Below the pieces are notes generated by a model, which saw nothing but the letters and a program-made list of their open reading frames with translations, made no database searches and was not told the DNA's origin. A program made the translations under genes and the position numbers. DNA of 64,000 nt, taken from the NCBI GenBank assembly GCA_004298155.1, contig SCRD01000028.1:124001-188000 (forward strand). The letters are read 5' to 3'. This document shows positions 2 to 13,242 of this stretch, one piece after another; position 1 is the stretch's first letter, and the number at the start of each line of letters is the position of its first letter. Source of the stretch: Acidobacteriota bacterium. GTDB lineage: Bacteria; Acidobacteriota; Terriglobia; UBA7540.

Positions 2-691
2 ATTCTCACGAGCCCCTGCTGGTCCGGCATCGTGAACGACGGGCGTGCCTATAGCGGCTACGTGATGAACATAGAGCGACGCGTTCCCTGGCGCACACTG
101 ACGGGCCGTCAACATCTCTATCTGGATCACGAAGCGTATCGCTCATTCGGAGAGTCTCTCCCTGCCTTTAAGCCTCGCATCGGCGCCGAAGCCACGCTGA
201 ACCTCGTGAAGAGCACTGCTGGAAACCGTTCGCTGGCGCTCGCCTGCATCACGCCGCACGGCAAGTGGCACATTCACTCAACTTATTCCGATAACCTGCG
301 CATGTTGACCCTTTCGCGAGGCGTCGAGCCTTTCTGGCTCAATGACCGCGATGCCGCGGAAATTGGCGTTCAGGATAACGAATGGATTGAGGCTTACAAC
401 GACAATGGCGTCATTGTGACGCGCGCCGTCGTCAGCGCGCGCATCCCCCGTGGGTTGTGCATTTTCTACCACGCTCCGGAACGCACGATTTCGTTTCCCA
501 AGTCTCCGGCGAGAAATCGAAAGCGTGGCGGAGGCACCAACAGCGTGACTCGAATGCGTCTGAAGCCGGTGCTGATTGCCGGAGGTTACGCCCAGCATTC
601 TTACCGCTTTAACGATTATGGTCCGCCGGCGTCAGACCGCGACACGTATGTGATGGTTCGCAAGCTCGAAGGCAAACCGCAGTGGGACTGA
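2..691 (+). CDS. narG: Respiratory nitrate reductase alpha subunit, C-terminal part
   Basis: This is the last ~229 residues of the molybdenum-cofactor catalytic subunit of membrane-bound nitrate reductase, which reduces nitrate to nitrite. The frame is open from the left edge, so the gene starts outside the window; the GTG at 32 is an internal Val codon. The visible part corresponds to the C-terminal cofactor-binding region, with stretches such as [15 protein letters not shown], the cap [25 protein letters not shown] and the terminal [15 protein letters not shown]. NarH follows after 16 bp. Identification rests on family resemblance and on the complete narHJI set behind it. Signal peptide and Mo ligand lie outside the window, so which side of the membrane it faces cannot be judged here. 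Confidence 0.93.
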
Positions 692-707
692 GGAAGGAAT
701 CTGATCT

Positions 708-2198
708 ATGAATGTTCGCGCGCAAGTCTCGATGGTTTTCCATCTCGACAAATGCATCGGCTGCCACACTTGCAGCCTGGCGTGCAAGAACCTTTGGACT
801 GACCGGCCCGGCACCGAATATATGTGGTGGAACAATGTAGAGACGAAGCCGGGAACCGGCTATCCAACTCTCTACGAAGACCAGGAGCAATACCACGGCG
901 GATGGATTCTCGAGGATGGCAAGCTCCAGCTGAGATTGGGCAGCCGGCCGTCGGAGCTGGTGAACATTTCGTTCAACCCCCGCCTGCCGACACTGGACGA
1001 TTACTACGAGCCCTTCACATATCGCTACGAAAACCTGATCAACGCCTCGCCGGGCGACGACCAACCCGTCGCAAAACCTGTCTCCATGATTACCGGGGAT
1101 GAGATGGAAATCGAAGCCGGCCCGAACTGGGACGATGATCTGAGCGGGTCCCCGATATACGCTTCAAACGACCCCAATCTGAAGGCACTGGATGAGGAGC
1201 AGCGAAGGCAATTTCTGGAGATGCAGCAGATCGTCTTCTTCTATCTTCCGCGCATCTGCAACCATTGCCTCAACCCAAGCTGCGTAGCGGCATGTCCCAG
1301 CGGCGCCATTTATAAGCGCGGAGAAGACGGCATCGTGCTGGTGAGTCAGGAGAAATGCCAAGGCTGGCGAATGTGCGTCTCCGGATGCCCATATAAGAAG
1401 GTCTATTTCAACTGGAACTCCGGCAAGGCCGAAAAGTGCATTCTGTGTTATCCGAGGCTCGAGACCGGCCAGGCCCCTGCATGCATGCACTCCTGCGTGG
1501 GCAAGATCCGCTATCTGGGCGTTCTGCTCTATGACGCAGACTGCATCGAGGAAACCGCCTCAAAGCCCGAGCAGGAACTTGTGGAAGCACAGCGCGATCT
1601 CATCCTTGATCCCTTCGATCAGCAGGTGATCCGCGAGGCTGAGGCGAATGGAATGGATGAAAAAGTCATCGAGGCGGCCCAGAAATCTCCCGTCTATAAA
1701 TATGTCAAGCGCTGGCGATTGGCCTTGCCCCTGCACCCGGAGTGGCGCACGCTGCCGATGCTGTTTTACGTTCCCCCGATGCTCCCCGTAACGGCCTCCA
1801 TAAGCCAGCAGGGACGGTATGAGCTGGCAACGGATTTGTTCAGCTCGCTTGAGAGCGCGCGGCTGCCGATCCGTTACATGGCGAGCCTGTTCGCCGCCGG
1901 GGATGAGAACGCCGTGATCGCTGTGTACAGGAAACTACTGGCCGGGCGCACGTTCAAGCGCGCTCAGACGGTGGGTGATATTCCGATGGATAAGGCTATG
2001 CAGGCGCTCAGAGAGGCCCAGTTAACGCCGCGAGAGGTCGAAGACATTTATCATCTCACTTCACTCGCCTCATTCGAAGAGATGTTCGTTATCCCTCCGA
2101 TGCTGCGCGAAGTGGCCATCGAGATGGGTGTGGATCCGCACGAATTTCAGGAAGAACGGGGCGCAGGTTTCGTGCAGCTTCCCGAGCGAGGTCTATAG
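708..2198 (+). CDS. narH: Respiratory nitrate reductase beta subunit (Fe-S)
   Basis: NarH passes electrons from the NarI haems to NarG through four Fe-S clusters. Cys ligands are visible at residues 16/19/22/26, 184/187/192/196 and in the set CQGWRMCVSGCPYKK from residue 217. In that set Trp220 stands in for a Cys, as known for the [3Fe-4S] cluster of NarH; a last set lies in CILCYPRLETGQAPAC. At 496 aa it has the usual family length. The ATG at 708 follows a GAGGAAGGAA-type ribosome site. The stop overlaps the narJ GTG start by one base, which suggests translational coupling. It is second in the nar operon. Confidence 0.97.
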   Translation: MNVRAQVSMVFHLDKCIGCHTCSLACKNLWTDRPGTEYMWWNNVETKPGTGYPTLYEDQEQYHGGWILEDGKLQLRLGSRPSELVNISFNPRLPTLDDYYEPFTYRYENLINASPGDDQPVAKPVSMITGDEMEIEAGPNWDDDLSGSPIYASNDPNLKALDEEQRRQFLEMQQIVFFYLPRICNHCLNPSCVAACPSGAIYKRGEDGIVLVSQEKCQGWRMCVSGCPYKKVYFNWNSGKAEKCILCYPRLETGQAPACMHSCVGKIRYLGVLLYDADCIEETASKPEQELVEAQRDLILDPFDQQVIREAEANGMDEKVIEAAQKSPVYKYVKRWRLALPLHPEWRTLPMLFYVPPMLPVTASISQQGRYELATDLFSSLESARLPIRYMASLFAAGDENAVIAVYRKLLAGRTFKRAQTVGDIPMDKAMQALREAQLTPREVEDIYHLTSLASFEEMFVIPPMLREVAIEMGVDPHEFQEERGAGFVQLPERGL

Positions 2199-2794
2199 TG
2201 AGCAGCCGAGTTTCACAATTTGACCTTTCCAGGCCAGACGCCGGGCCTTCACTGGCCGTGCGTGAAATTTATAGCCTCTTTGCTCGCGTTCTTGATTATC
2301 CCACGCCGGAATTTTCCGCACAGGTTCGTGAACTTGTTCTGCAGGTAGGGCCCCTGAGCCGCGAGGCCGCTGAATTCCTGGGGAAGTTTGCCGCGGAATC
2401 CCAAGTGATGACGACAGGCCAGCTCCAGGAACTTTACACCGGCACGTTTGACATGCGCCCCGACCGTACGATGAACCTGGGATGCCATCTCTTTGGCGAG
2501 GACATGCGCCGAAACGTCTTTATGACGGAATTGAAGAGGCGAATGGAAGCCCGGCAGGTTCAAATGGGGAGCGAATTGCCTGACCACCTTAGCTTGGTGC
2601 TCGAACTCCTTGCGCGCGAGGAGTCGGAAGGGGAAACGCAAACGCTGATAGCCGACTGCCTGGAGCCTGCACTGACGCGGCTTCTGTCAACCTTCGATGC
2701 AGCCGGCACGGATCTCTATGCGAGGTTGCTGCAGGGGCTCGAGACCTTCCTTCGCGGCGACCAGGCAAGATCGGCTTCAGCCGTATCTGCCTGA
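2198..2794 (+). CDS. narJ: Nitrate reductase assembly chaperone
   Basis: NarJ is a cytoplasmic TorD/NarJ-type chaperone that binds apo-NarG and allows Mo-cofactor insertion before membrane attachment. The 198-aa all-helical sequence begins with the typical 'YSLFARVLDYPTPEF' segment and carries the middle LYTGTFDM...NLGCHLFGED region and the acidic LPDHLSLVLELLA helix of the family. The GTG start shares one base with the narH stop. Its position between narH and narI is the standard order narGHJI. Confidence 0.93.
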   Translation: MSSRVSQFDLSRPDAGPSLAVREIYSLFARVLDYPTPEFSAQVRELVLQVGPLSREAAEFLGKFAAESQVMTTGQLQELYTGTFDMRPDRTMNLGCHLFGEDMRRNVFMTELKRRMEARQVQMGSELPDHLSLVLELLAREESEGETQTLIADCLEPALTRLLSTFDAAGTDLYARLLQGLETFLRGDQARSASAVSA

Positions 2795-2915
2795 CGGATT
2801 TTGTTATGGGCGAGTTCATCCTGCCTACAGTCTGGCGCGGTGAGTGCGTGGAAGACAGCGCAAAGCTGGCGCTGCGTGTTCCTCAGCAACCTGACAGGAG
2901 CTTGAAGGAATCGAG

Positions 2916-3611
2916 ATGGATGTTTTCCTGTTTATAGCTTTTCCATATCTCGCTCTGGTGCTTGCCATCGGGGTCGGCATCTACCGGCGTCGTCGGAACC
3001 CTTACACCTATTCCAGTCTCTCATCCCAGCTTCTTGAAAACCGCAGGCTGTTCTGGGGCTCCGTCCCTTGGCACTACGGGATTACGCTTATCCTGCTTGC
3101 GCACCTTCTTGTCGCACTTTTCCCTGGTGCCGCGGAATTCATCCTCGGCGGCCGTTACCGGCTGCTGACGCTGGAACTTACGGGGATGGCGCTGGCGCTG
3201 TTTGCGCTTTTCGGGTTGCTGGTTCTGATCATTCGCCGCCTGCCTGCGGCCTGGCTGGCGCGCCGAACCACTTCCTACATGGATGGCATTCTGCTGGGCT
3301 TCCTGCTGCTTCAGGTGTCCACCGGGATCATCATCGCAGTCTTCGACCGTTGGGGCAGCCTGTGGTATTTGCGAACGGCCGTGCCATGGTTCTGGTCGCT
3401 GGTGAAGCTGCGTCCGGATATGAGTACGGTGGCCAGGCTGCCTGGCCTCGTCAAGCTCCACTTCGTATTCGGTTTTGCGGTCATCCTTCTTTTCCCATTC
3501 ACGCGGCTCGTCCATCTTGTCATGTTCCCGCTCCAGTACCTGTGGAGGCCTTACCAGGTTGTGATATGGAACAGGCACGCGGGCCAGGAACCCAAGGAGA
3601 CGCTGAAATGA
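2916..3611 (+). CDS. narI: Nitrate reductase gamma subunit (cytochrome b)
   Basis: NarI is the membrane dihaem cytochrome b that accepts electrons from quinol and hands them to NarH. The 231-aa protein has about five hydrophobic helices. Likely haem His ligands are in WHYGITLILLAHLL (near residue 50) and in the C-terminal helices KLHFVFGFAVILLFPFTRLVHLV. A GAAGGAA ribosome site precedes the ATG at 2916. There is a 121-bp gap after narJ without an obvious gene. The stop codon overlaps the Rieske start as ATGA, so the bc-type genes are part of the same transcript. Confidence 0.93.
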   Translation: MDVFLFIAFPYLALVLAIGVGIYRRRRNPYTYSSLSSQLLENRRLFWGSVPWHYGITLILLAHLLVALFPGAAEFILGGRYRLLTLELTGMALALFALFGLLVLIIRRLPAAWLARRTTSYMDGILLGFLLLQVSTGIIIAVFDRWGSLWYLRTAVPWFWSLVKLRPDMSTVARLPGLVKLHFVFGFAVILLFPFTRLVHLVMFPLQYLWRPYQVVIWNRHAGQEPKETLK

Positions 3612-4123
3612 ATCACGAGCCATTCAACAATTCTGAAAACACTTGCGTGGGTTGCAGCCGCCGTACCTTTTTATCCCGGCTGACCCTTCTGGCGGGGACG
3701 ATCGCGGGGGCAATTGTTGCCATTCCCAGTGTGGCCTTTCTGCTCGGTCTTCGCAAAGTCCCGCATGTCTGGCGGGCTGTGGGCAAACTCGAGGATTTCC
3801 AGATCGGAAGCACGGTGAATGTATCATTCCTTGACCCGTCACCGCTGCCGTGGGCCGGTGTCACGGCACAGACAGCCGCCTGGCTACGGCGTGAGACGGC
3901 CGACAAGTTCATCGCCTTCTCAGTCGACTGCACGCATTTAGGCTGCCCGGTCCGCTGGCTGCAGGGCGCAAATCTTTTCATGTGCCCGTGCCACGGCGGC
4001 GTCTTCTATGCCAACGGCACGGTAGCCTCCGGGCCGCCACCGAAACCCTTGACGCAATATCCCGTGCGAGTGCAGGACGGTGAGGTGCAGATCCTCACGA
4101 GCCCGCTTCCTATCACGACTTAA
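3608..4123 (+). CDS. Rieske [2Fe-2S] protein of a bc-type complex
   Basis: A 171-aa Rieske protein starting at the ATG that overlaps the narI stop by four bases. The N-terminus carries a twin-arginine segment (SRRTFLSRL) followed by a long hydrophobic stretch, as in Rieske proteins exported by Tat and left anchored. The cluster motifs are complete: CTHLGCPV and CPCHGGVF supply two Cys and two His ligands plus the two disulfide cysteines. It should take electrons from quinol at the Qo site of the cytochrome b encoded next and pass them to the c-type domain. Fusion of these genes to a nar operon is the notable point. Confidence 0.93.
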   Translation: MNHEPFNNSENTCVGCSRRTFLSRLTLLAGTIAGAIVAIPSVAFLLGLRKVPHVWRAVGKLEDFQIGSTVNVSFLDPSPLPWAGVTAQTAAWLRRETADKFIAFSVDCTHLGCPVRWLQGANLFMCPCHGGVFYANGTVASGPPPKPLTQYPVRVQDGEVQILTSPLPITT

Positions 4124-4144
4124 CAACCTGGACGAAGGCTTTGC

Positions 4145-5581
4145 ATGCGAATCTTCAAATTTGTATGGAACTGGTTTGACGACATTACCGGCGTTTCAAG
4201 CTGGCTGGTTCCCCTGGCCAAACATCCCGTGCCGCACGCCCGCAAGTCGGCATGGTTCTATGTGCTTGGAAGCGCCACCCTGTTTGTGTTTATCGTGCAA
4301 ATCATCACCGGCATCGCATTATCCAGCGCCTATGTACCTTCCGCCGGGCAGGCGTATCACACATTGGCCTTTATTGACAGCACCCGCTTCGGGCATATTG
4401 TCCGCGGGATCCATGATTTTGGCGCCTCCGCGATGGTCATTCTCATCGGCGTGCATGCCATCCGGGTTTATCTGTTCGGAGCATACAAATACCCTCGCCA
4501 GATGGGCTGGCTGACAGGGGTCGCGCTGCTTTTCCTGGTACTCGGAATGGCTTTCACCGGGCAGCTTCTGCGCTGGGACCAGACGGGCTTCTGGACGGTG
4601 GTGATTGCCGCCGAACAAGCAGGCCGGACGCCCTTCCTCGGTAATTGGCTGGGGCACTTCATCCTTGCTGGAGACACAGCCGGTGGGGCAACGCTAAGCC
4701 GATTCTTTGCCCTCCACGTCTTCTTCATCCCTGCTTTTATTTTTTTCTTCGTTGGGTTTCATCTCTATCTTGTTATCCGCAACGGTATTTCCGAGCCGCC
4801 GAAGGCTGGCCGGCAGGTGGAGCCCAAAACCTATCGCAAGTGGTACGCGGAATTGCTGCACCGTGATGGCGTGCCCTTCTGGCCCGACGCCGCATGGCGC
4901 GATGGCATCTTCGCCCTGCTTGTCGTTGCTACGATTGTCGTTCTGGCTATTGTTGTGGGACCAGCAGCCCTTGGCAAGCCTCCGGACCCGAGCATCATCG
5001 AAGCCTCTCCCAGGCCGGACTGGTATTTCCTGTGGTATTACGCTGTCCTCACCCTGATTCCCCGCTGGTCTGAAAGTTACGTGATTATCCTGGGGCCGCT
5101 GGCTCTGATCATCGTCTTGGTCCTGTTGCCGCTGGTGTCATACAAAGGAGAACGCAGCCCTTTCAAACGGCCCTGGGCCTTTGGAATCGTGGTATTCATT
5201 GTGTTTATGATTGCCTACTTTGGCAGGATTGGCCATGTGGCCCCATGGTCGCCGCGCATGGATGCCCCGCCGCTCCCGGCATCCGTTGTGGGCGTAACGA
5301 GCGGTCCCGTCGCTGATGGCGCGGCAGTCTTCCACGAGAAGGGATGCGAGTTTTGCCATATGATCTCAGGCTACGGAGGCGTCCGCGGGCCTGACCTTAC
5401 CTACGCCGGGGACCGCATGACCCCTGAACAAATGGAAACGCGCATCTACAGCGGCGCGCCCAACATGCCCTCGTACAACGGAAACATTACCCATCAGCAG
5501 CTTTCTGATCTCCTTTCTTTTTTAAGTTCGCGCCGTCGGCTGCCTGCAGGGTCCGCGCCGGCGAGTTCAGCGGCCAGATAA
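4145..5581 (+). CDS. Cytochrome b / cytochrome c fusion protein
   Basis: A 478-aa membrane protein with a full cytochrome b core and a C-terminal c-type haem domain. Haem b His pairs lie in GIHDFG...GVHAIR (x13 spacing) and LHVFFIP...GFHLYL (x14 spacing, b6-like). The Qo motif reads PDWY rather than PEWY; PDWY is associated with low-potential, menaquinol-using complexes. The C-terminus has one CEFCH haem c motif near residue 401 and a likely axial Met in APNMPSY. With the Rieske protein it forms a minimal bc complex. A 21-bp gap separates it from the Rieske gene. Confidence 0.93.
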   Translation: MRIFKFVWNWFDDITGVSSWLVPLAKHPVPHARKSAWFYVLGSATLFVFIVQIITGIALSSAYVPSAGQAYHTLAFIDSTRFGHIVRGIHDFGASAMVILIGVHAIRVYLFGAYKYPRQMGWLTGVALLFLVLGMAFTGQLLRWDQTGFWTVVIAAEQAGRTPFLGNWLGHFILAGDTAGGATLSRFFALHVFFIPAFIFFFVGFHLYLVIRNGISEPPKAGRQVEPKTYRKWYAELLHRDGVPFWPDAAWRDGIFALLVVATIVVLAIVVGPAALGKPPDPSIIEASPRPDWYFLWYYAVLTLIPRWSESYVIILGPLALIIVLVLLPLVSYKGERSPFKRPWAFGIVVFIVFMIAYFGRIGHVAPWSPRMDAPPLPASVVGVTSGPVADGAAVFHEKGCEFCHMISGYGGVRGPDLTYAGDRMTPEQMETRIYSGAPNMPSYNGNITHQQLSDLLSFLSSRRRLPAGSAPASSAAR

Positions 5582-6183: not shown

Positions 6184-6903
6184 TCATGGGTTCTCGCCTC
6201 GATTTTGCATGTCCGCAGCAAGCGAGCTCAATGATGCCGAACCATTGGATGGCTCGACACGTTTGGCCCAGAGAGGATAGTCCAACCCTGCCAATCGATT
6301 GATTACTATCCCCTGCACTACCAACAGCGCCACGGCGACTTCGATGATTGCCAGATAGAATGGTTTGGTCACAATGCCGAGGGAAATGATCAGTGTCGTG
6401 GCACCGGCAGGAGGGTGCGCCGCCTTCAGCAGAATCATCACGCCGGCTGTCAGCGCAAGTGACAAGGCGGCAGCCATAATCCGACGCATATCCACATGGG
6501 TCTCGATGGCAGGCGGGGCGTGGTGCAGGCCCAGAAGCAGCAGCGAGGCATAGCCGCATACGATACCGATGGCATGGCCGTAGAGCGTGTGGCGAGGCGA
6601 AGCGGTGGGTGAAAGCGGGGTGTAGAAGAGCAGGATTGCCGTGGGCCCGAGAGACGGAAACACGAACGGTGTGTTGGAAACCATCGCCACGCCGGCGAGA
6701 ATCGCAATGGTGATGAACCCGTTTATGAACATGAACAGCGCCCAGACGCGCCGTTCCGGAAAGCGGTCGAGAAGGTGGATCAGCCTGAGCCGCTGGGCGA
6801 TGCCGCGAACGACTGCCGGGTCAAGCAGCGCCAGCCGCGAGGGACTTTCAGAGCCCGGCTCGCCTGTTCCTCTGGGAGTCCTGAGGTCCAATTGGCTATT
6901 CAT
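6184..6903 (-). CDS. HPP-family integral membrane protein, candidate nitrite transporter
   Basis: A 239-aa protein with several hydrophobic helices and the family signature HPPAGATTL. HPP proteins of plastids and cyanobacteria have been shown to carry nitrite across membranes; whether this one does is inference from its location opposite the nitrate reductase operon. The ATG lies inside the end of the methyltransferase gene (8-bp overlap), so the two are translationally coupled. It is the last gene of the run starting at 9.5 kb. A short charged N-terminus of about 50 residues precedes the first helix. Confidence 0.85.
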   Translation of the reverse strand: MNSQLDLRTPRGTGEPGSESPSRLALLDPAVVRGIAQRLRLIHLLDRFPERRVWALFMFINGFITIAILAGVAMVSNTPFVFPSLGPTAILLFYTPLSPTASPRHTLYGHAIGIVCGYASLLLLGLHHAPPAIETHVDMRRIMAAALSLALTAGVMILLKAAHPPAGATTLIISLGIVTKPFYLAIIEVAVALLVVQGIVINRLAGLDYPLWAKRVEPSNGSASLSSLAADMQNRGENP

Positions 6904-7462
6904 GGCGTCTCACCGCAAAGCGAAATGCCCTTCCATTGGTGACGACGGTGGGGCTTGCAAAGCCGGCAGCCACGAATCGCGCAGGTAGGGCCGTCGGATC
7001 AATTGGGATCAGGATATCACGGATGTGAAGAAGGCGCATGACCCAGTTTCCCATGCTGTCCACTCCGGCGAAGATGGAGCCCGGCCGGATCACTCGACAA
7101 ACTTCCTTCAGAAGCTTGTCCTGCCGTTCAATAGGCGAGACGTGATGGAGCATGGTGAACGCGACAGCTCCAGTGAAGGAGGCGTCCCTGAACGGAAGCG
7201 CCGTCCCGTCGCCCTGGACAACCCCGGCGTTTGTGCCATGGAGGGTCCTGCCCAGAGAACGTGCCAGCCGACTATCAATTTCGACTACAGTCACCCGCTC
7301 GAAGCGCCGCCGCAGCCAGTTCGTCGTGAAGCCGTAGCCCGGCCCGATCTCCAGCACGCTCTGGCCGAGATCGAGCCCGTCAAGCGTCCACGGAAGAACG
7401 TCTCCCTCGAGTTTTTTTCTCCAATGTCCAGAACTGCAAATCCAGCGGTGAACTTGGTTCAT
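6896..7462 (-). CDS. Class I SAM-dependent methyltransferase
   Basis: A 188-aa Rossmann-fold methyltransferase. The SAM-binding motif VLEIGPGYGFTT is followed by VVEIDSRLARSL (acidic ribose-binding residue), GDGTALPFRDASFTGAVAFTMLHH and a late GSIFAGVDSM strand, the pattern of UbiE-like small-molecule methyltransferases. I chose the ATG at 7462 with an AGAGG site; a TTG 21 bp upstream is possible. The gene starts 44 bp after the MetE C-domain gene and overlaps the HPP gene. Substrate unknown. A SAM user directly behind a methionine synthase may draw on the same methyl supply. Confidence 0.85.
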   Translation of the reverse strand: MNQVHRWICSSGHWRKKLEGDVLPWTLDGLDLGQSVLEIGPGYGFTTNWLRRRFERVTVVEIDSRLARSLGRTLHGTNAGVVQGDGTALPFRDASFTGAVAFTMLHHVSPIERQDKLLKEVCRVIRPGSIFAGVDSMGNWVMRLLHIRDILIPIDPTALPARFVAAGFASPTVVTNGRAFRFAVRRHE

Positions 7463-7505
7463 TGCCGGCCTCTGCGTAAGCAACCATTGTGAACAAGAAA
7501 TTTTC

Positions 7506-8501
7506 TTAATTGCCGCGCAGCGCCCGCGCCGCGGAAACGACCCTTTCCAGTTTAGCTTCGGCCTCTTCCACTGTTCGAGTTTTCAGGCCGCAATCCGGAT
7601 CAACCCAGATGGTCTCCGGCGCCAGAAGCTCAAGCCCCTTCTTCAATCGCTGCTCGGCGACAGCCAAATCTTCTATCACATGGGTATGCACGTCAACCAC
7701 GCCGTAGCTGATGTCCTTGGTGAAAGGGGCCTTTGAAAAAAGCTGGAGCATGTCGAGCCCGCTGTTTGACATTTCGAGGTCAAAGTTATCGACAGCGAGA
7801 TCAAGCATGCCTGGATAAATGCTTTGAAAATCTCCGTAACAGATGTGTGTCAAGAAGTATGCTTCCAGTTCCCGCGTCGTCATTCCCATGGCTTCGATCG
7901 CGAGCGGCAGCTCGGCAGGCCGCACAGAAATGGCCGGCTCGTCGATCTGAATGATTTTGCAGCCTGCCCGCACCAGGGCCTCGGCCTCTTTGCGGACCTC
8001 TTTCGCCAGCGCCAGACAGGCATCACGCCGCGTGGAATAAAACTCATTGAATGACCAATCCATCAGCGTGTAGGCTCCGGTCAGGATGCCCTTGACGGGC
8101 CTTGAAGTAAGACTTTGCGCGTAACGCCACCATTCGACAGTTATGGGCGTGGTCCACTTTACCTCGTTCACGATAATAGGTTTGTGGTAGTAACGATTGC
8201 CGTAGGAGCGGACCAATCCCCCTTGTTCGAATCCCGAAAGCTGGTCCGCGAAATAGGCGACCATATCACCGCGGTACATCTCGCCATCAACCAATACGTC
8301 GAGGCCCAGATCTTCCTGCTTTTGAACCCAGAATTTGATGGCGCGCCTTTCGGCCTCCTTTAACTCTTCCGGAGTGATAGCACCCCGCGCATAATCGGCA
8401 CGAGCTTTCACAAGATAGGAAGGTTTGGGAAAGCTTCCAACAGAGGTTGCAGGAAAAGCCGGAAGGTTGATGCCCAACTTGAGTAGTTTCGAGCGGCTCA
8501 T
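7506..8501 (-). CDS. Cobalamin-independent methionine synthase, C-terminal catalytic barrel
   Basis: A 331-aa TIM barrel matching the catalytic half of MetE, which transfers the methyl group of a folate to homocysteine. The zinc ligands expected from MetE are all visible: His and Cys in THICYGDF, Glu in FDLEMSNSG and Cys in VDPDCGLKTR. IDEPA, typical of the family, is also present. It lacks the N-terminal barrel of full-length MetE (~750 aa). That barrel appears to be supplied by the gene in front, whose TGA overlaps this ATG by one base (TGATG). It could also be a stand-alone core-MetE that takes methyl from another donor. Confidence 0.87.
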   Translation of the reverse strand: MSRSKLLKLGINLPAFPATSVGSFPKPSYLVKARADYARGAITPEELKEAERRAIKFWVQKQEDLGLDVLVDGEMYRGDMVAYFADQLSGFEQGGLVRSYGNRYYHKPIIVNEVKWTTPITVEWWRYAQSLTSRPVKGILTGAYTLMDWSFNEFYSTRRDACLALAKEVRKEAEALVRAGCKIIQIDEPAISVRPAELPLAIEAMGMTTRELEAYFLTHICYGDFQSIYPGMLDLAVDNFDLEMSNSGLDMLQLFSKAPFTKDISYGVVDVHTHVIEDLAVAEQRLKKGLELLAPETIWVDPDCGLKTRTVEEAEAKLERVVSAARALRGN

Positions 8502-9484
8502 CAGCTTTCACCCATAATGCAATTTCTGATGGATGTCAGGTGCTTGAGTTTTAACCGGGCGCGATCGCGGGGTAAATATTCGAGGCCACAGGAAGTGGTA
8601 AGGTAACAACGCTCCGCCGTTACGCGTGCGAGCATACGCTCAACCGTGTGTGCTACCCGTTTCATTTCCTCGAGTTTGGTATTCCGGCCATCGAGCAGAC
8701 CGAACCCGAGAGGCTTGGCGCTGCCCTCCGCTTCGATCACGCTCGGAAGATTCGGGCCGTATATAAGGTCCAAAATAAGAGCGTCAACAGGCAACCTCTG
8801 GAGTTCCGTGTAGACAGGGGCCGCATCTCCAAAATAAGTTGCCAGCATCAACTCCGCTTGTCCCTTCCGGTCCGCGATCATTGCCAGCGCTTCTCCGCCG
8901 AGAGGCAGGTCTCCAGGATATTTTAACAGGCAAGGCTCATCGATCTGAATCATCCGCGCGCCCGCCGCAGCCAGATCGGCCACTTCGGCGCTCAACACGT
9001 CTGCAAACGCTAAGGTTAGAGATGCAGGACCGGCGGCAACTCTATCTTGCAACGAAAGGCGGGCAAGAGTGCATGGGCCCGTCAGGATAGGCTTAACCGG
9101 CTTGGCCGTCCGTTTTGTTGCCTGCTGAAATTCACCGACCACAAGCGCCCGGGTCCGTTTGATCTTTCGAGAGATAGTGGGCTGCCGAAAGTAGAAGTTG
9201 GTGTCGAAATACCTGAGCAGCCCGTTGATGCGGGCGCCTTCAAGCTTTGACGCCAGGTGCGAGACAGGATCATTCCATCGGGTCAGGCCGTCGGTCACGA
9301 TATCGAGGCCGGCCTCTTCCTGCTCCTGAAGTGCCAGCAAGACCATGTGATCTTCGGCGGCACGAACGTCGGCGTCCGCCTTTTCACCCCGGTCGCGCTG
9401 GGTCATGGTGCGGCGCAACACCTGCTCGCTGCGGTTGCTCCCGATTCGCGGGTAACTGCTGTGGTTTGCGGTGAGAAAGTCCAT
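8501..9484 (-). CDS. MetE N-terminal-barrel-like protein, partner of the catalytic half
   Basis: A 327-aa MetE-family barrel. It keeps family landmarks (SSYPRIGSNR start, QIDEPCL, SCGLEYLPR) but lacks the HxC zinc pair: the region reads ATYFGDAAP, as in the non-metal N-terminal barrel of MetE. This makes it the likely folate-positioning half of a split enzyme with the next gene, which it overlaps by one base. I took the ATG at 9484; a GTG at 9520 would add 12 residues and neither has a strong ribosome site. Alternatively it may be a distinct methyltransferase of the MetE superfamily. Confidence 0.75.
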   Translation of the reverse strand: MDFLTANHSSYPRIGSNRSEQVLRRTMTQRDRGEKADADVRAAEDHMVLLALQEQEEAGLDIVTDGLTRWNDPVSHLASKLEGARINGLLRYFDTNFYFRQPTISRKIKRTRALVVGEFQQATKRTAKPVKPILTGPCTLARLSLQDRVAAGPASLTLAFADVLSAEVADLAAAGARMIQIDEPCLLKYPGDLPLGGEALAMIADRKGQAELMLATYFGDAAPVYTELQRLPVDALILDLIYGPNLPSVIEAEGSAKPLGFGLLDGRNTKLEEMKRVAHTVERMLARVTAERCYLTTSCGLEYLPRDRARLKLKHLTSIRNCIMGES

Positions 9485-9531: not shown

Positions 9532-10284
9532 CTATGCCCCAGCCTCTCGCCTTCCGGAGATGGTCGCATTTTCCATGGCAACCGCGCGTGGGAAGAGTAC
9601 GTTGTTTTCAAGATGGACATGTTGGTGCATATCGCTTTCAAATGCACGCAGCGCTTCAAATAAGGAATGATAGCTATTGCAGGCATCCGGCGGAAGCCGG
9701 TAGTTGCTCGTCAGATTTCGAATCTCATGGAGGGCCGCACCAGCGCTGTCATGCTCCAGCACCATCATTTGCACGGGGTTTTGAACCGTGCCAAACGGCG
9801 GCCGAGGGAATGAAATTCCTCGAATTGCCGCCTCCTCCATCCGCGTGATGTAAGGGAACAGGGTTTGCTCTTCTTTGATCAGGTGCATTAGCAACTCCTT
9901 GCGCAGTTCAGCAAAGAGCGCCTTGATGCGCCGCAGCTCGGAATGAATATCGCCGTGCACCTGCGCCACTTTTTCAAGAAGGTCCTCGATGCGCACCACC
10001 TCCTGCCGGCAGAAGGTGTGGTGCTCTTTCACGATATGATTCATAAGGTTCACGAGCGGCTGTTTCATCCAGTCGGGAATCCCTTCCTCTGGAATGGCGG
10101 AGCTGTCGGCAGCCTCAAGGTTCCGCGTGACGTCTCCCACCTGCAGGCCGGCCGCCTGGCAGGCCTCATCCAGGCGTTTGTCGCCCCCACAGCAATAATC
10201 GATTCCCATCTGCTCAAATATTCTTGCCGATGCTGGCGTCGCCAGCACAATTTCCTTTACAGTCTTCCTTGCGTCAATTTCCAC
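9532..10284 (-). CDS. ric: Di-iron Fe-S cluster repair protein (RIC/ScdA/YtfE family)
   Basis: A 250-aa protein that in its family repairs iron-sulfur centres damaged by nitric oxide or peroxide. The N-terminal ScdA/DUF542 domain carries the paired cysteines in GIDYCCGG near residue 30. The C-terminal haemerythrin-like domain supplies di-iron ligands in KEHHTFCRQE, HLIKEEQTLFPYI, VLEHDSAG and HVHLENNVLFPRA. The start is a GTG at 10284 with an AAGGAG site. Its place beside nitrate reductase and DUF2249 genes fits protection from NO made during nitrate/nitrite reduction. Confidence 0.93.
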   Translation of the reverse strand: MEIDARKTVKEIVLATPASARIFEQMGIDYCCGGDKRLDEACQAAGLQVGDVTRNLEAADSSAIPEEGIPDWMKQPLVNLMNHIVKEHHTFCRQEVVRIEDLLEKVAQVHGDIHSELRRIKALFAELRKELLMHLIKEEQTLFPYITRMEEAAIRGISFPRPPFGTVQNPVQMMVLEHDSAGAALHEIRNLTSNYRLPPDACNSYHSLFEALRAFESDMHQHVHLENNVLFPRAVAMENATISGRREAGA

Positions 10285-10335: not shown

Positions 10336-10929
10336 TCAGCTGGCAGCCGCGATCGCCACGAGGTTTGAAATTTTGGCCAGCGCGCTGCGGACTACCCACT
10401 GGAGTTCTTCCGCGGGCAACGGGTAGCTGACGTAATCAAGGATGCCCAGCTCCAGGGCGTCAATACGCGAGTGCGAAGAGCAGCTCCCGGTGCATAAGGT
10501 CACCACGCCTGCGGGGATTTTACGCGCAAGCGAAAGGAGATCGCGAAACGTCCCGTCTTGTATATCAGCAGCACAGATAACCAGGGAGACTTTCTCATGA
10601 AGCAGGATTTTACAGGCTTCGCTGAGGCTTGAAGCGCGGATCGCCGTCAACCCGCTTCCACCTAGGACCCGGCACACGAACGCCTGTATGCGCGGATCTG
10701 AAATGGCTGCAAGGATGTTCGGGTCGGCCGCGGCCAAATTCGTCTCCCTGCCTTCAACTTTACTCGAAGTCTCAGACAAAGGCTGGCCTTTACCAGCCGG
10801 AGCTGTCACAGGTCCACTGACACCAGGCAAGGTGCTTTGCTCGCCAGGGCGGCGCTCCGCGTACTTCCCATACAATTTCTGAGGTGTAGAATTTGCCTTG
10901 GTGGTGGTAACTTTGGGTGCTCCTGTCAT
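10336..10929 (-). CDS. Receiver-like protein without phosphoacceptor Asp
   Basis: A 197-aa protein with a disordered, Pro/Lys-rich N-terminus (~70 residues) followed by a CheY-like fold (ILAAISDPRIQAFVCRVLGGSG to the end). Alignment by eye to the usual beta-3 motif puts Ala where the phosphorylated Asp should be (LVICAADIQDG), and the conserved Lys near the end is Tyr (YVSYPLPAEEL). It should therefore not work as an ordinary phospho-switch. No output domain is present. A strong GAGGAGGA site precedes the ATG. It lies between the RIC gene and a second receiver-like gene. Exact role unknown. Confidence 0.7.
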   Translation of the reverse strand: MTGAPKVTTTKANSTPQKLYGKYAERRPGEQSTLPGVSGPVTAPAGKGQPLSETSSKVEGRETNLAAADPNILAAISDPRIQAFVCRVLGGSGLTAIRASSLSEACKILLHEKVSLVICAADIQDGTFRDLLSLARKIPAGVVTLCTGSCSSHSRIDALELGILDYVSYPLPAEELQWVVRSALAKISNLVAIAAAS

Positions 10930-11021: not shown

Positions 11022-11492
11022 CTAACACACCGCCCGTCCATTGGCCGAATGACCCACACCGTGCGCCAGCCGCCTGGACCGCTCTCCGGAGGTGCTCTTT
11101 CCCTCCTGGATCTGGCGTTGGTTCTCAGCGCGCAAACAATCCCGAACCGATTCGAAGATCAGATACGCCGAGCCCTCCCGAATGATGCAATGCCCGCCTA
11201 GATCTGAATATATCCTGGCCATTTCCGGATTAGATTGAGAACCGTGTAAGAGAACGACCGTCGGCGCAGCAGAGAGGAGACGAATTGCTTGCCAGACTTC
11301 TTTGGGCCTGACATCCGGAAGCTGCTCGCCGAGTAGAATGAATTCGAATTCCCCGGAATGAAGCTGCTCCACTGCCTCCTGCCCTCCCCAGGCGATTGTG
11401 GTTTCGTACCCGTCATCCTCAAAGAAAAATGCCAGCCTCGTTATCAGGTCGTGGTCCCCGTCGGCAATCAGTATGCGCTTTTTTGTTCTCAT
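11022..11492 (-). CDS. Second degenerate receiver-domain protein
   Basis: A 156-aa stand-alone receiver-like protein. The N-terminus is canonical (RILIADGDHDLITRLAFFFEDDGYE), but the phosphoacceptor position reads Gly in EFILLGEQLPD and the usual Lys is Arg (HCIIREGSA). The last ~35 residues are polar and probably unstructured. The start ATG at 11492 has only a weak AAGGG site. A candidate promoter and palindrome lie about 80-120 bp upstream. It is 92 bp from the other receiver-like gene on the same strand, so the two may form a regulatory pair. Confidence 0.75.
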   Translation of the reverse strand: MRTKKRILIADGDHDLITRLAFFFEDDGYETTIAWGGQEAVEQLHSGEFEFILLGEQLPDVRPKEVWQAIRLLSAAPTVVLLHGSQSNPEMARIYSDLGGHCIIREGSAYLIFESVRDCLRAENQRQIQEGKSTSGERSRRLAHGVGHSANGRAVC

Positions 11493-12186: not shown

Positions 12187-12699
12187 TCACTCGGGGCATT
12201 CGAGGTTGATATACCGGACCCATTCGAGAACATCATCGACACCGATGCATCCAGGCTGCTCATCATGCCAAACGTGTCGGATTTCTCCGAAACGGTCGAC
12301 GACGCAGACAATCGGCCGGTTGGCATCTGTGGCAGGAGCGCCTGCCAGTTCGTGGGCATAGCCCCCTTCGTCAGAGAGGAGCGGGAAAGGGTAGACGCCG
12401 CCCCGCTCGAAAATTTCGGCGCCTTGCCCGGATGACTGGACGGCGGCCAGCACCTGGGCCTCTTCGCTCTCAAACTCGGAGTGGTTCCTGGAAATCTGCT
12501 CCAGACAATTACGAACGGCATCTGAATTACCGTTTCCGCAGAAGACCACAACAAGGTTGCGACGTCCGCGATAATCGGAGATCCGCACGAGCTTCCCGGT
12601 TGCCGAAACGAGGGCCAGGTCCGGCATCATCTCGCCAGCCAGGAGGAGGCCGGCCCTTCCGTGCTGCCGCGTATTTGTTCCGGCACCGTGCTCAGGCAT
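12187..12699 (-). CDS. Redoxin-fold protein with Ser in place of the peroxidatic Cys
   Basis: A 170-aa thioredoxin-fold protein of the AhpC/TSA-redoxin type: MPDLALVSATGKLVRISDYRGRRNLVVVFC, then FPLLSDEGGYAHELAG and PIVCVVDRFGEIRHVWHDE. In peroxiredoxin relatives the region after the beta strand reads like WCPYC; here it is NGNSDAVRNC, with Ser at the aligned Cys position. A different Cys (VVFC or RNC) could serve, or the protein may not be a peroxidase. The ATG at 12699 overlaps the DUF2249 stop by one base (TGATG). Confidence 0.8.
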   Translation of the reverse strand: MPEHGAGTNTRQHGRAGLLLAGEMMPDLALVSATGKLVRISDYRGRRNLVVVFCGNGNSDAVRNCLEQISRNHSEFESEEAQVLAAVQSSGQGAEIFERGGVYPFPLLSDEGGYAHELAGAPATDANRPIVCVVDRFGEIRHVWHDEQPGCIGVDDVLEWVRYINLECPE

Positions 12700-12971
12700 C
12701 AAGCCTCTTTCTTTCTGGCCTTCTCAAGCTGCACGCGCCAAACCTCTGGCCCCTGCTCAAGATAAGTCCATTTGAAAATGCCATGCTGAATAAAGTCAAG
12801 CTCGTAGAGAACAGGCTTCGGATCGTGGTCAACCACCAATATGAAGGCCTGGCCGGGCTGCAATTGCTCATAGGTTTTGAAAATAAGAGGATGGCGTTGC
12901 GCGTGGGCGACCTCGCGAACGTCAAGCGTCGTGATAACTTCCGGCGTTTCTTTTGTGCTAGGTGTGCTCAT
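12699..12971 (-). CDS. DUF2249 domain protein
   Basis: A 90-aa protein matching DUF2249: TLDVREVAHAQRHPLIFKTYEQLQPGQAF, then LVVDHDPKPVLYEL and the C-terminal YLEQGPEVWRVQLEK. DUF2249 proteins are often found near denitrification, haemerythrin and RIC genes, which is the setting here; their biochemical role is not settled. The ATG has an AAGGAG site 5 bp upstream. It heads a two-gene unit with the redoxin. Confidence 0.9.
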   Translation of the reverse strand: MSTPSTKETPEVITTLDVREVAHAQRHPLIFKTYEQLQPGQAFILVVDHDPKPVLYELDFIQHGIFKWTYLEQGPEVWRVQLEKARKKEA

Positions 12972-13242
12972 AAGCTCCTTTCAGCGTTTTCATTGTTTGT
13001 TCACTTGTCTGTTGGACAATTCGCGCTTCACGCACAAAGCGGCGGAAGCGCTGTTCAGATCAGACAGGTATTTCTTATCCCCACTGCATCATGTACGATC
13101 ATTTCATGGCGTGTGTATGACAAAAGTCACAATGGCGATCTTTCCTCCGTAGCTTTACCATTAGCTGACTATTCGGGTAGCGGCTTTTCGTCTTGTTTGC
13201 GCGGGTGGCGTTTTTTGAGATCTGTATGATTCCAGGTTGTAG

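Follow-up and report, generated by a model that had tools for sequence, protein, structure and literature searches.

The 64,000-nucleotide stretch of DNA analyzed here (the window; positions 124,001 to 188,000 of contig SCRD01000028.1, assembly GCA_004298155.1, from an Acidobacteriota bacterium) carries two adjacent minus-strand genes, metE-N (8501..9484) and metE-C (7506..8501), which very probably encode the two subunits of a split cobalamin-independent methionine synthase, MetE. The pair is predicted with good confidence to make methionine from methyl-folate. It lies directly behind ric (ytfE/scdA), the gene for the iron-sulfur cluster repair di-iron protein RIC, and with moderate confidence we predict that its main role in this organism is methionine synthesis under nitric oxide (NO) or nitrous oxide (N2O). 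A two-gene MetE is an already published kind of enzyme and is not new; the new element looks to be the nitrogen oxide (N-oxide) setting of the pair. A search of the literature by titles and abstract openings, with subscription papers mostly outside its reach, returned no paper linking split MetE to N-oxide genes.

The original prediction described two minus-strand genes overlapping by one base. Both open reading frames (ORFs) are present, and the stop codon of metE-N and the start codon of metE-C have one A in common (TGATG). The metE-C ORF, downstream of metE-N, starts with ATG and encodes 331 amino acids (aa). The metE-N ORF reaches up to 9520 and encodes 339 aa from a GTG, or 327 aa if read from the ATG at 9484; its homologue at locus L053, in another genome, also has a start at the position matching ATG 9484. 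In Pfam searches, metE-C matched Meth_synt_2 (PF01717) with 266.8 bits vs 31.6 bits for Meth_synt_1, and metE-N matched Meth_synt_1 (PF08267) with 105.3 bits vs 101.0 bits for Meth_synt_2, a narrow margin obtained with a Pfam version newer than that of Price et al. 2021. Against TIGR01371, the model of fused MetE, metE-C scored 302.7 and metE-N 109.2 bits, both below the cut-off of 929.95. By those defining criteria of split MetE that we applied, the pair belongs to this class: each component is no longer than 400 aa, the folate-side protein scores higher with Meth_synt_1 than with Meth_synt_2, and the genes are adjacent, as is usual and not required. For the catalytic component, Price et al. 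2021 set a threshold of 200 bits by phmmer against P. furiosus PF1269; with PRK04326 standing in for that protein, metE-C reached 378.7 bits, under the model's cut-off of 406. The pair lacks one typical but non-defining trait, that of being the sole methionine synthase, as MetH is also present.

The metE-C protein, a (beta-alpha)8 barrel, is the catalytic subunit. A full zinc site in one of the two barrels had been predicted, and metE-C carries it as H219-x-C221, E243 and C304, together with the homocysteine ligands S23, E74 and D187 (ligand set as given in PMC7857596). H219, C221, C304, S23, E74 and D187 were invariant in all 41 aligned C subunits, and E243 was present in 37 of the 41. The zinc ligands are absent from metE-N, which has TYFG at the position expected for HxC and the conserved motifs FDTN, DGRNT and GLE-LPRD. 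The methyl-folate site of MetE is described as comprising Trp539, Glu583, Arg493, Arg496, Lys104, Arg15 and Lys18 in Thermotoga maritima numbering (PMC539065). When positions were matched by hand, the counterparts of Trp539 (Trp149) and Arg493 (Arg103) were invariant in the 41 C subunits, that of Arg496 was R in 22 and H in 17 of them, and Arg91 of the N subunit, facing the position of Lys104, was invariant in 44 N subunits; Arg15 and Lys18 had no confident placement. The loop after DEPA is shorter in metE-C than in fused MetE.

AlphaFold single-chain models, built from alignments of 44 (N) and 41 (C) sequences, had predicted local distance difference test (pLDDT) scores of 94.8 for metE-N and 94.3 for metE-C. 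The best PDB match of the metE-N model was the N-terminal barrel of Streptococcus mutans MetE (2nq5, residues 1-361; Z 38.5, root-mean-square deviation (rmsd) 1.7, 315 residues aligned), and that of the metE-C model was a MetE C-terminal barrel (4qqu; Z 41.8, rmsd 1.7). Together with the slightly better Meth_synt_1 score, the N model supports the claim that the barrel without HxC resembles the N half of MetE.

GTDB genomes, scanned with an alignment of 10 N proteins, yielded 93 loci, of which 80 were kept. By their record titles these span Acidobacteriota, Methylomirabilota, Rokubacteria, Nitrospirota, Chloroflexi, Omnitrophota, Zixibacteria and others, with Hadarchaeota and Thermoplasmata among the archaea. 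At 74/80 loci the C gene closely follows the N gene on the same strand; the six exceptions lie at a contig edge (L090, L112, L114 and L128) or have a gap of 677 bases (L065) or 3.3 kb (L130). The pairing of N with C is more than chance. In a tree of 55 barrels, the N halves of fused MetE grouped with split N and the C halves with split C, and each fused set formed one clade. Profile searches, best structure matches and tree thus place the two genes as two MetE barrels, supporting the reading as split MetE. The topology is also compatible with a split form predating fused MetE, that is, with a two-gene ancestor; the order of events is unsure because the MetEN branch is long (2.55), only four fused MetE were included and midpoint rooting put 3 of the 19 split N rows on the C side. 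The idea that a fused metE gene (~750-aa chain) recently split by frameshift or fission was rejected, since N-C pairs occur across many phyla and fused MetE forms one clade per half, beside or inside the split clades. An assembly artefact was likewise rejected, since a congener and more distant genomes have the same arrangement.

We then compared the distribution of split MetE with that of other methionine synthases. The search took in the genomes behind 50 of the 80 scan loci and the window genome (51 in all); several metagenome-assembled genomes are less than 90% complete. The 30 loci outside this test were mostly on short contigs or from near relatives, and include L061, from the same genome as L053. 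Fused MetE was above cut-off in 0/51 of these genomes and full-length MetH in 10/51, among them the window genome (1249-aa ORF, 1707.1 bits) and the genome YP4.bin42. In the phylum sample, MetH was above cut-off in 257/396 genomes, and present in 290/396 at E<=1e-150. At the latter threshold MetH was found in 0/10 genomes with a close N orthologue vs 289/385 of the rest (Fisher p 1.4e-6; window genome excluded), where p-values are descriptive only, because the genomes share ancestry. The genome G119 (193 bits) was dropped from the close-orthologue count because its C partner has no HxC zinc motif; including it gave 1/11 (p 1.2e-5). All 24 non-window phylum genomes matching N at 1e-20, a set that takes in fused MetE and single-barrel genes, included 8 with MetH. 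In one further genome (G436), a nearly complete MetH match scored 930 bits and stayed below the cut-off. Judging from these distributions, many of these bacteria may rely mainly on split MetE for methionine synthesis. At two loci a MetH gene (L059:3261-6977, 1238-aa ORF; L092:3109-6927, 1272-aa ORF) ends 23 and 73 bases upstream of metE-N, respectively, so that a single operon may encode the two enzyme types there. Other relatives of the barrels were also seen. In the window genome a third MetE relative (L003; G000:C6:202220-203200) consists of a single barrel and keeps the HxC and PDCG motifs intact, and four genomes from other families of the phylum (G119, G319, G059 and G033, all also carrying MetH) have adjacent pairs with a C partner lacking HxC (L045, L047, L048 and L050), which are possibly non-catalytic or repurposed.

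The link to N-oxide metabolism came from the neighbors of the pair. The next gene upstream of metE-N is ric (9532..10284, minus strand; TIGR03652, 237.6 bits, over cut-off), and the order RIC-metEN-metEC occurs in the window genome, in its congener G446 (locus L179) and twice in YP4.bin42 (L053 and L061), giving four copies in three genomes. The four RIC-linked N proteins form a 100/100 clade, the other three being 62-70% identical to the window N; the sister of this clade comprises ten N proteins from the same family, where the pair has other neighbors. In G446, narGHJ-Rieske-cytb is convergent with AhpC-RIC-metEN-metEC, with an AhpC homologue directly upstream of ric. In YP4.bin42, both pairs face an NnrS gene, of which that at L053 matches PF05940 with 37.6 bits and that at L061 is 83% identical to it, and a Crp/Fnr-family gene stands beside the L061 copy. 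These recurrences suggest that the ric-metE setting near N-oxide genes is not chance. Within the window family, full-length MetH was over cut-off in 2/2 RIC-linked genomes tested (the window genome and YP4.bin42) vs 0/9 others, with genomes matched by contig coordinates, G446 outside the count and G397 and G401, two genomes with MetH-like pieces (see below), among the nine. The L053 and L061 clusters are 83.6% identical over 6 kb, and the L061 N gene is frame-broken, by strain mixture, sequencing error or decay.

A palindrome of Crp/Fnr type (HcpR-like), TATGACAAAAGTCACA, lies at 13116..13131 of the window (no strand assigned), 144 nt before the start of a DUF2249 gene, and matches the pattern YRTGAC-N4-GTCAYR exactly. 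This single match compares with 0.06 expected from shuffled windows, and the 5.2-Mb genome has 11 exact sites vs 1 for the reversed control. Of the 11, one precedes an NnrS-like gene (50.6 bits), one separates NnrS (610 bits) from a second RIC gene (RIC2, 265 bits), both confirmed by phmmer, one precedes nar and one is the window box at 13116. Four others neighbor genes that by eye resemble radical SAM (two sites in tandem), cytochrome and UspA genes; the remaining three, within ORFs, seem to be chance matches. Boxes with one mismatch occur ~50 bp before the norB ORF of the window genome and ~90 bp before ric in G446. The consensus of HcpR is given as wTGTGAnnnnnnTCACAw, and dnrN (ytfE, of the ric family) and nnrS are listed as core members of N-oxide regulons (PMC1274295). 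The window box resembles this consensus and is a candidate site before N-oxide genes. The FNR and DNR boxes TTGAT-N4-ATCAA and TTGAC-N4-GTCAA were rejected, having only two-mismatch matches near the genes. As for the radical-SAM-like genes, two of the same look by eye lie directly upstream of norB (L159:8857-9984) and behind the tandem boxes (L146:340-1428).

The window genome also encodes a NorB-type NO reductase (PF22085, 187.3 bits, 783-aa ORF), and no NosZ above cut-off was found in it (best match 27.7 bits; at 97.6% completeness a NosZ could have been missed). With NorB present and no recognizable NosZ, N2O is the likely end product, and the organism may accumulate it. In YP4.bin42, a NosZ match of 767.7 bits, with three internal stops in its reading, lies on the same contig as the second RIC-metE copy. 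A supply of methyl-folate exists, as judged by the sole MTHFR match of the window genome (G000:C10:16591-18330), a 639-aa ORF that also has a homocysteine-methyltransferase match. N2O is reported to react with the Co(I) of MetH and to inactivate the enzyme, and deletion of metE to make Escherichia coli, Paracoccus denitrificans and Pseudomonas aeruginosa sensitive to N2O (PMC13059711). Strong induction of the fused metE of Burkholderia pseudomallei by nitrate and nitrite has been described (PMC8742066), which fits an N-oxide role of the pair.

Computation gave the identities of the subunits, their conserved pairing, the genes around them and the box; from these we infer how the complex, its methyl donor, its regulation and its protective role might fit together. 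The two genes would encode a heterodimeric cobalamin-independent methionine synthase, in which the C subunit would hold Zn2+ and activate homocysteine, and the N subunit would pack face to face on C, as in fused MetE, completing the cleft for the methyl-folate donor. The pair and RIC, in one gene group, would probably be under a Crp/Fnr-type regulator of N-oxide or anoxia responses. When NO or N2O, presumably from the cell's own nitrate respiration, disables MetH, the pair would most likely sustain methionine synthesis. Taken as a whole, the explanation we favor, with some reservation, is a split MetE serving as an N-oxide-insensitive backup for MetH.

Several observations weigh against this explanation. 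For the enzyme itself, the best NCBIfam model of both proteins is the same one, PRK04326 (378.7 and 188.3 bits; cut-off 406). The original prediction had named a match of both proteins to one core family as a finding that would count against it; formally, half of this applies here. The N-family profile gives MetE C barrels higher sequence scores than N barrels. The structure matches listed for the N model include 22 MetE entries, of which 17 fit through the C barrel (Z 29.4-33.9) and 5 through the N barrel (Z 35.1-38.5), and the single-barrel MesD (3rpd) comes second overall (Z 36.5). For Glu583, which binds the pterin in T. maritima MetE, there is no clear counterpart. Both the shared best model and the preference of the N profile for C barrels would be expected if the N barrel descended from the C barrel, as argued by Pejchal and Ludwig (PMC539065). 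For the N-oxide role, 78 of the 80 scan loci lack a RIC homologue, and homologues of narG, narH or narJ are missing from all 80, so that this role would be lineage-specific; in the eight further genomes where MetH and split MetE coexist, no RIC link was seen in the stretch around the pair. The boxes of L053 and L061, ~210 bp before ric, carry one mismatch. In the window there is no box directly before ric: the exact box lies 2.8 kb upstream, with a ~700-bp gap and two response-regulator-like genes between, so that co-transcription is unproven there and direct control less sure than in G446 or YP4.bin42. Finally, in each of three genomes (G397:C193, G401:C243 and G409:C341) separate genes that correspond to the homocysteine, folate and B12 portions of MetH are clustered on one contig; they could represent a MetH in several parts or a related system of corrinoid methyltransferases. 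Our confidence in the favored explanation and in the wider proposal given below is lower for this reason.

The rarity of RIC and nar genes around the pair would favor an ordinary split MetE, kept as a B12-independent backup under cobalamin scarcity in a functionally meaningless N-oxide neighborhood, and MetE is indeed described as working without cobalamin, with many organisms holding both enzymes (PMC7857596, PMC13059711). We consider this account unlikely, if worth keeping in mind. No Rfam family, the cobalamin riboswitch included, reached its gathering score in the window, and control by such a riboswitch was rejected. Moreover, RIC-metEN-metEC is kept in its four copies in two different surroundings (beside nar and opposite NnrS), and the box is common to nar, NnrS and RIC2, with the one-mismatch copy at norB.

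Two further alternatives concern the reaction. The C subunit could be a core methionine synthase of the MesA-D type, fed by a corrinoid protein, with N as a regulator or scaffold; the single-barrel PRK04326 match of both proteins would suit this, as would the N model lying nearly as close to MesD as to its best N barrel. MesD needs a partner, MesX (DUF1852). MesA is reported to be close to the catalytic subunits of split MetE (PMC7857596). However, the adjacency of N to C at nearly all loci and the invariance of the hand-matched Trp149 and Arg103 of C and Arg91 of N make a core synthase quite improbable. The pair could instead be a thiol methyltransferase for another substrate, recruited to N-oxide stress with the methyltransferase and HPP genes downstream; MetH is also present in the genome, a third relative with intact HxC is present, and related Acidobacteriota pairs have a C partner lacking this motif. 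We regard this as very improbable, since all 41 C subunits conserve S23, E74 and D187, the homocysteine ligands, without exception, the window C is 65-69% identical to the C subunits of L055, L057, L060, L063 and L066, from genomes without MetH above cut-off, and in G446 neither the methyltransferase nor the HPP gene was found after metE-C.

The remaining genes around the pair are as follows. Downstream of metE-C, on the minus strand, are a gene for an S-adenosylmethionine (SAM)-type methyltransferase (6896..7483, probable ATG 7462; PF08241, 65.8 bits) and one for an HPP-family membrane protein (6184..6903; PF04982, 96.4 bits). The methyltransferase gene also follows metE-C in L053 and L061, and the HPP gene does so in L053; the L061 contig ends there. 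Upstream of ric, also on the minus strand, are a response-regulator-like gene directly adjacent to it (10336..10929; PF00072, 21.7 bits, below the cut-off of 30.2), a response-regulator receiver domain gene (11022..11492; PF00072, 30.4 bits, cut-off 30.2), an AhpC/TSA-type peroxiredoxin gene (12187..12702; PF00578, 46 bits) and the DUF2249 gene (12699..12971; PF10006, 94 bits). The DUF2249 family is reported to be activated under denitrifying conditions in Haloferax mediterranei (PMC11218638). Convergent with the pair, on the plus strand, profile matches delineate a nitrate reductase operon (32..5581): it begins with the 3' end of narG (248.4 bits), followed by narH (708-2198; 641.9 bits, over cut-off), narJ (2198-2794; 58.1 bits, cut-off 59.35) and genes for a Rieske protein (3068-4123) and cytochrome b (4145-5581), both sub-cut-off matches. 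After narJ (2795-5581), the Rieske protein and cytochrome b, the latter with a weak C-terminal cytochrome c match, stand in place of NarI, an order repeated in the congener. In other loci of the scan (L054-L058, L060, L062-L066, L077, L078 and others), an MqnA/D-like gene lies upstream of metE-N at 20 and an MFS-like gene after metE-C at 9, all named by eye; no direct functional lead was obtained from these conserved neighbors.

If the favored explanation is true, Acidobacteriota would have a hard-wired B12-independent defense against N2O in a genome predicted to release it, and split MetE would be widened from a mainly archaeal form to one of many bacterial phyla. The two-gene examples would be living test cases for the model in which MetE arose by duplication and then fusion. 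A wider proposal can be made only tentatively: in those lineages of this Acidobacteriota family that combine nitrate respiration with full-length MetH, a housekeeping split MetE might have become an N-oxide-stress enzyme, wired with RIC, NnrS, Nar and NorB to a Crp/Fnr-type regulator and not to a B12 riboswitch, as a shield from self-released N2O, and split MetE itself might be the surviving form of the ancestor that existed before fusion.

Known systems resemble the window pair in different respects. Work in Pseudomonas describes fused MetE as protecting denitrifiers from N2O (PMC13059711), and the elements are the same here, a B12-independent enzyme next to MetH and nitrate respiration genes; protection there rests on genetics, whereas the split form in the window is predicted to protect from gene context and the box. 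MesA, MesB, MesC and MesD are, like the window C subunit, single-barrel zinc enzymes related to the C half of MetE, and are described without an N-barrel partner, whereas the window C subunit has an adjacent, conserved partner gene (PMC7857596). Fused MetE (TIGR01371), as described for T. maritima, has the same two barrels in the same order with the same zinc site (PMC539065), but is a single ~750-aa chain scoring over the cut-off, in place of two chains. Split MetE, as named by Price et al. 2021, consists of the same two proteins of less than 400 aa, one MetE-N-like and one MetE-C-like, from usually adjacent genes, and is primarily archaeal (PMC7857596). Their examples include PF1268/PF1269 of Pyrococcus furiosus, whose proteins are cited as forming a complex, and proteins of Pyrolobus, Halobacteria and Thermoprotei, with an adjacent pair noted in the bacterium Sulfobacillus sp. 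hq2; in 106 of their 107 split-MetE genomes, other methionine synthases are reported to be absent (PMC7857596). The window pair differs from these in being bacterial, from Acidobacteriota, in occurring alongside a full-length MetH, and in lying behind ric in an N-oxide setting.

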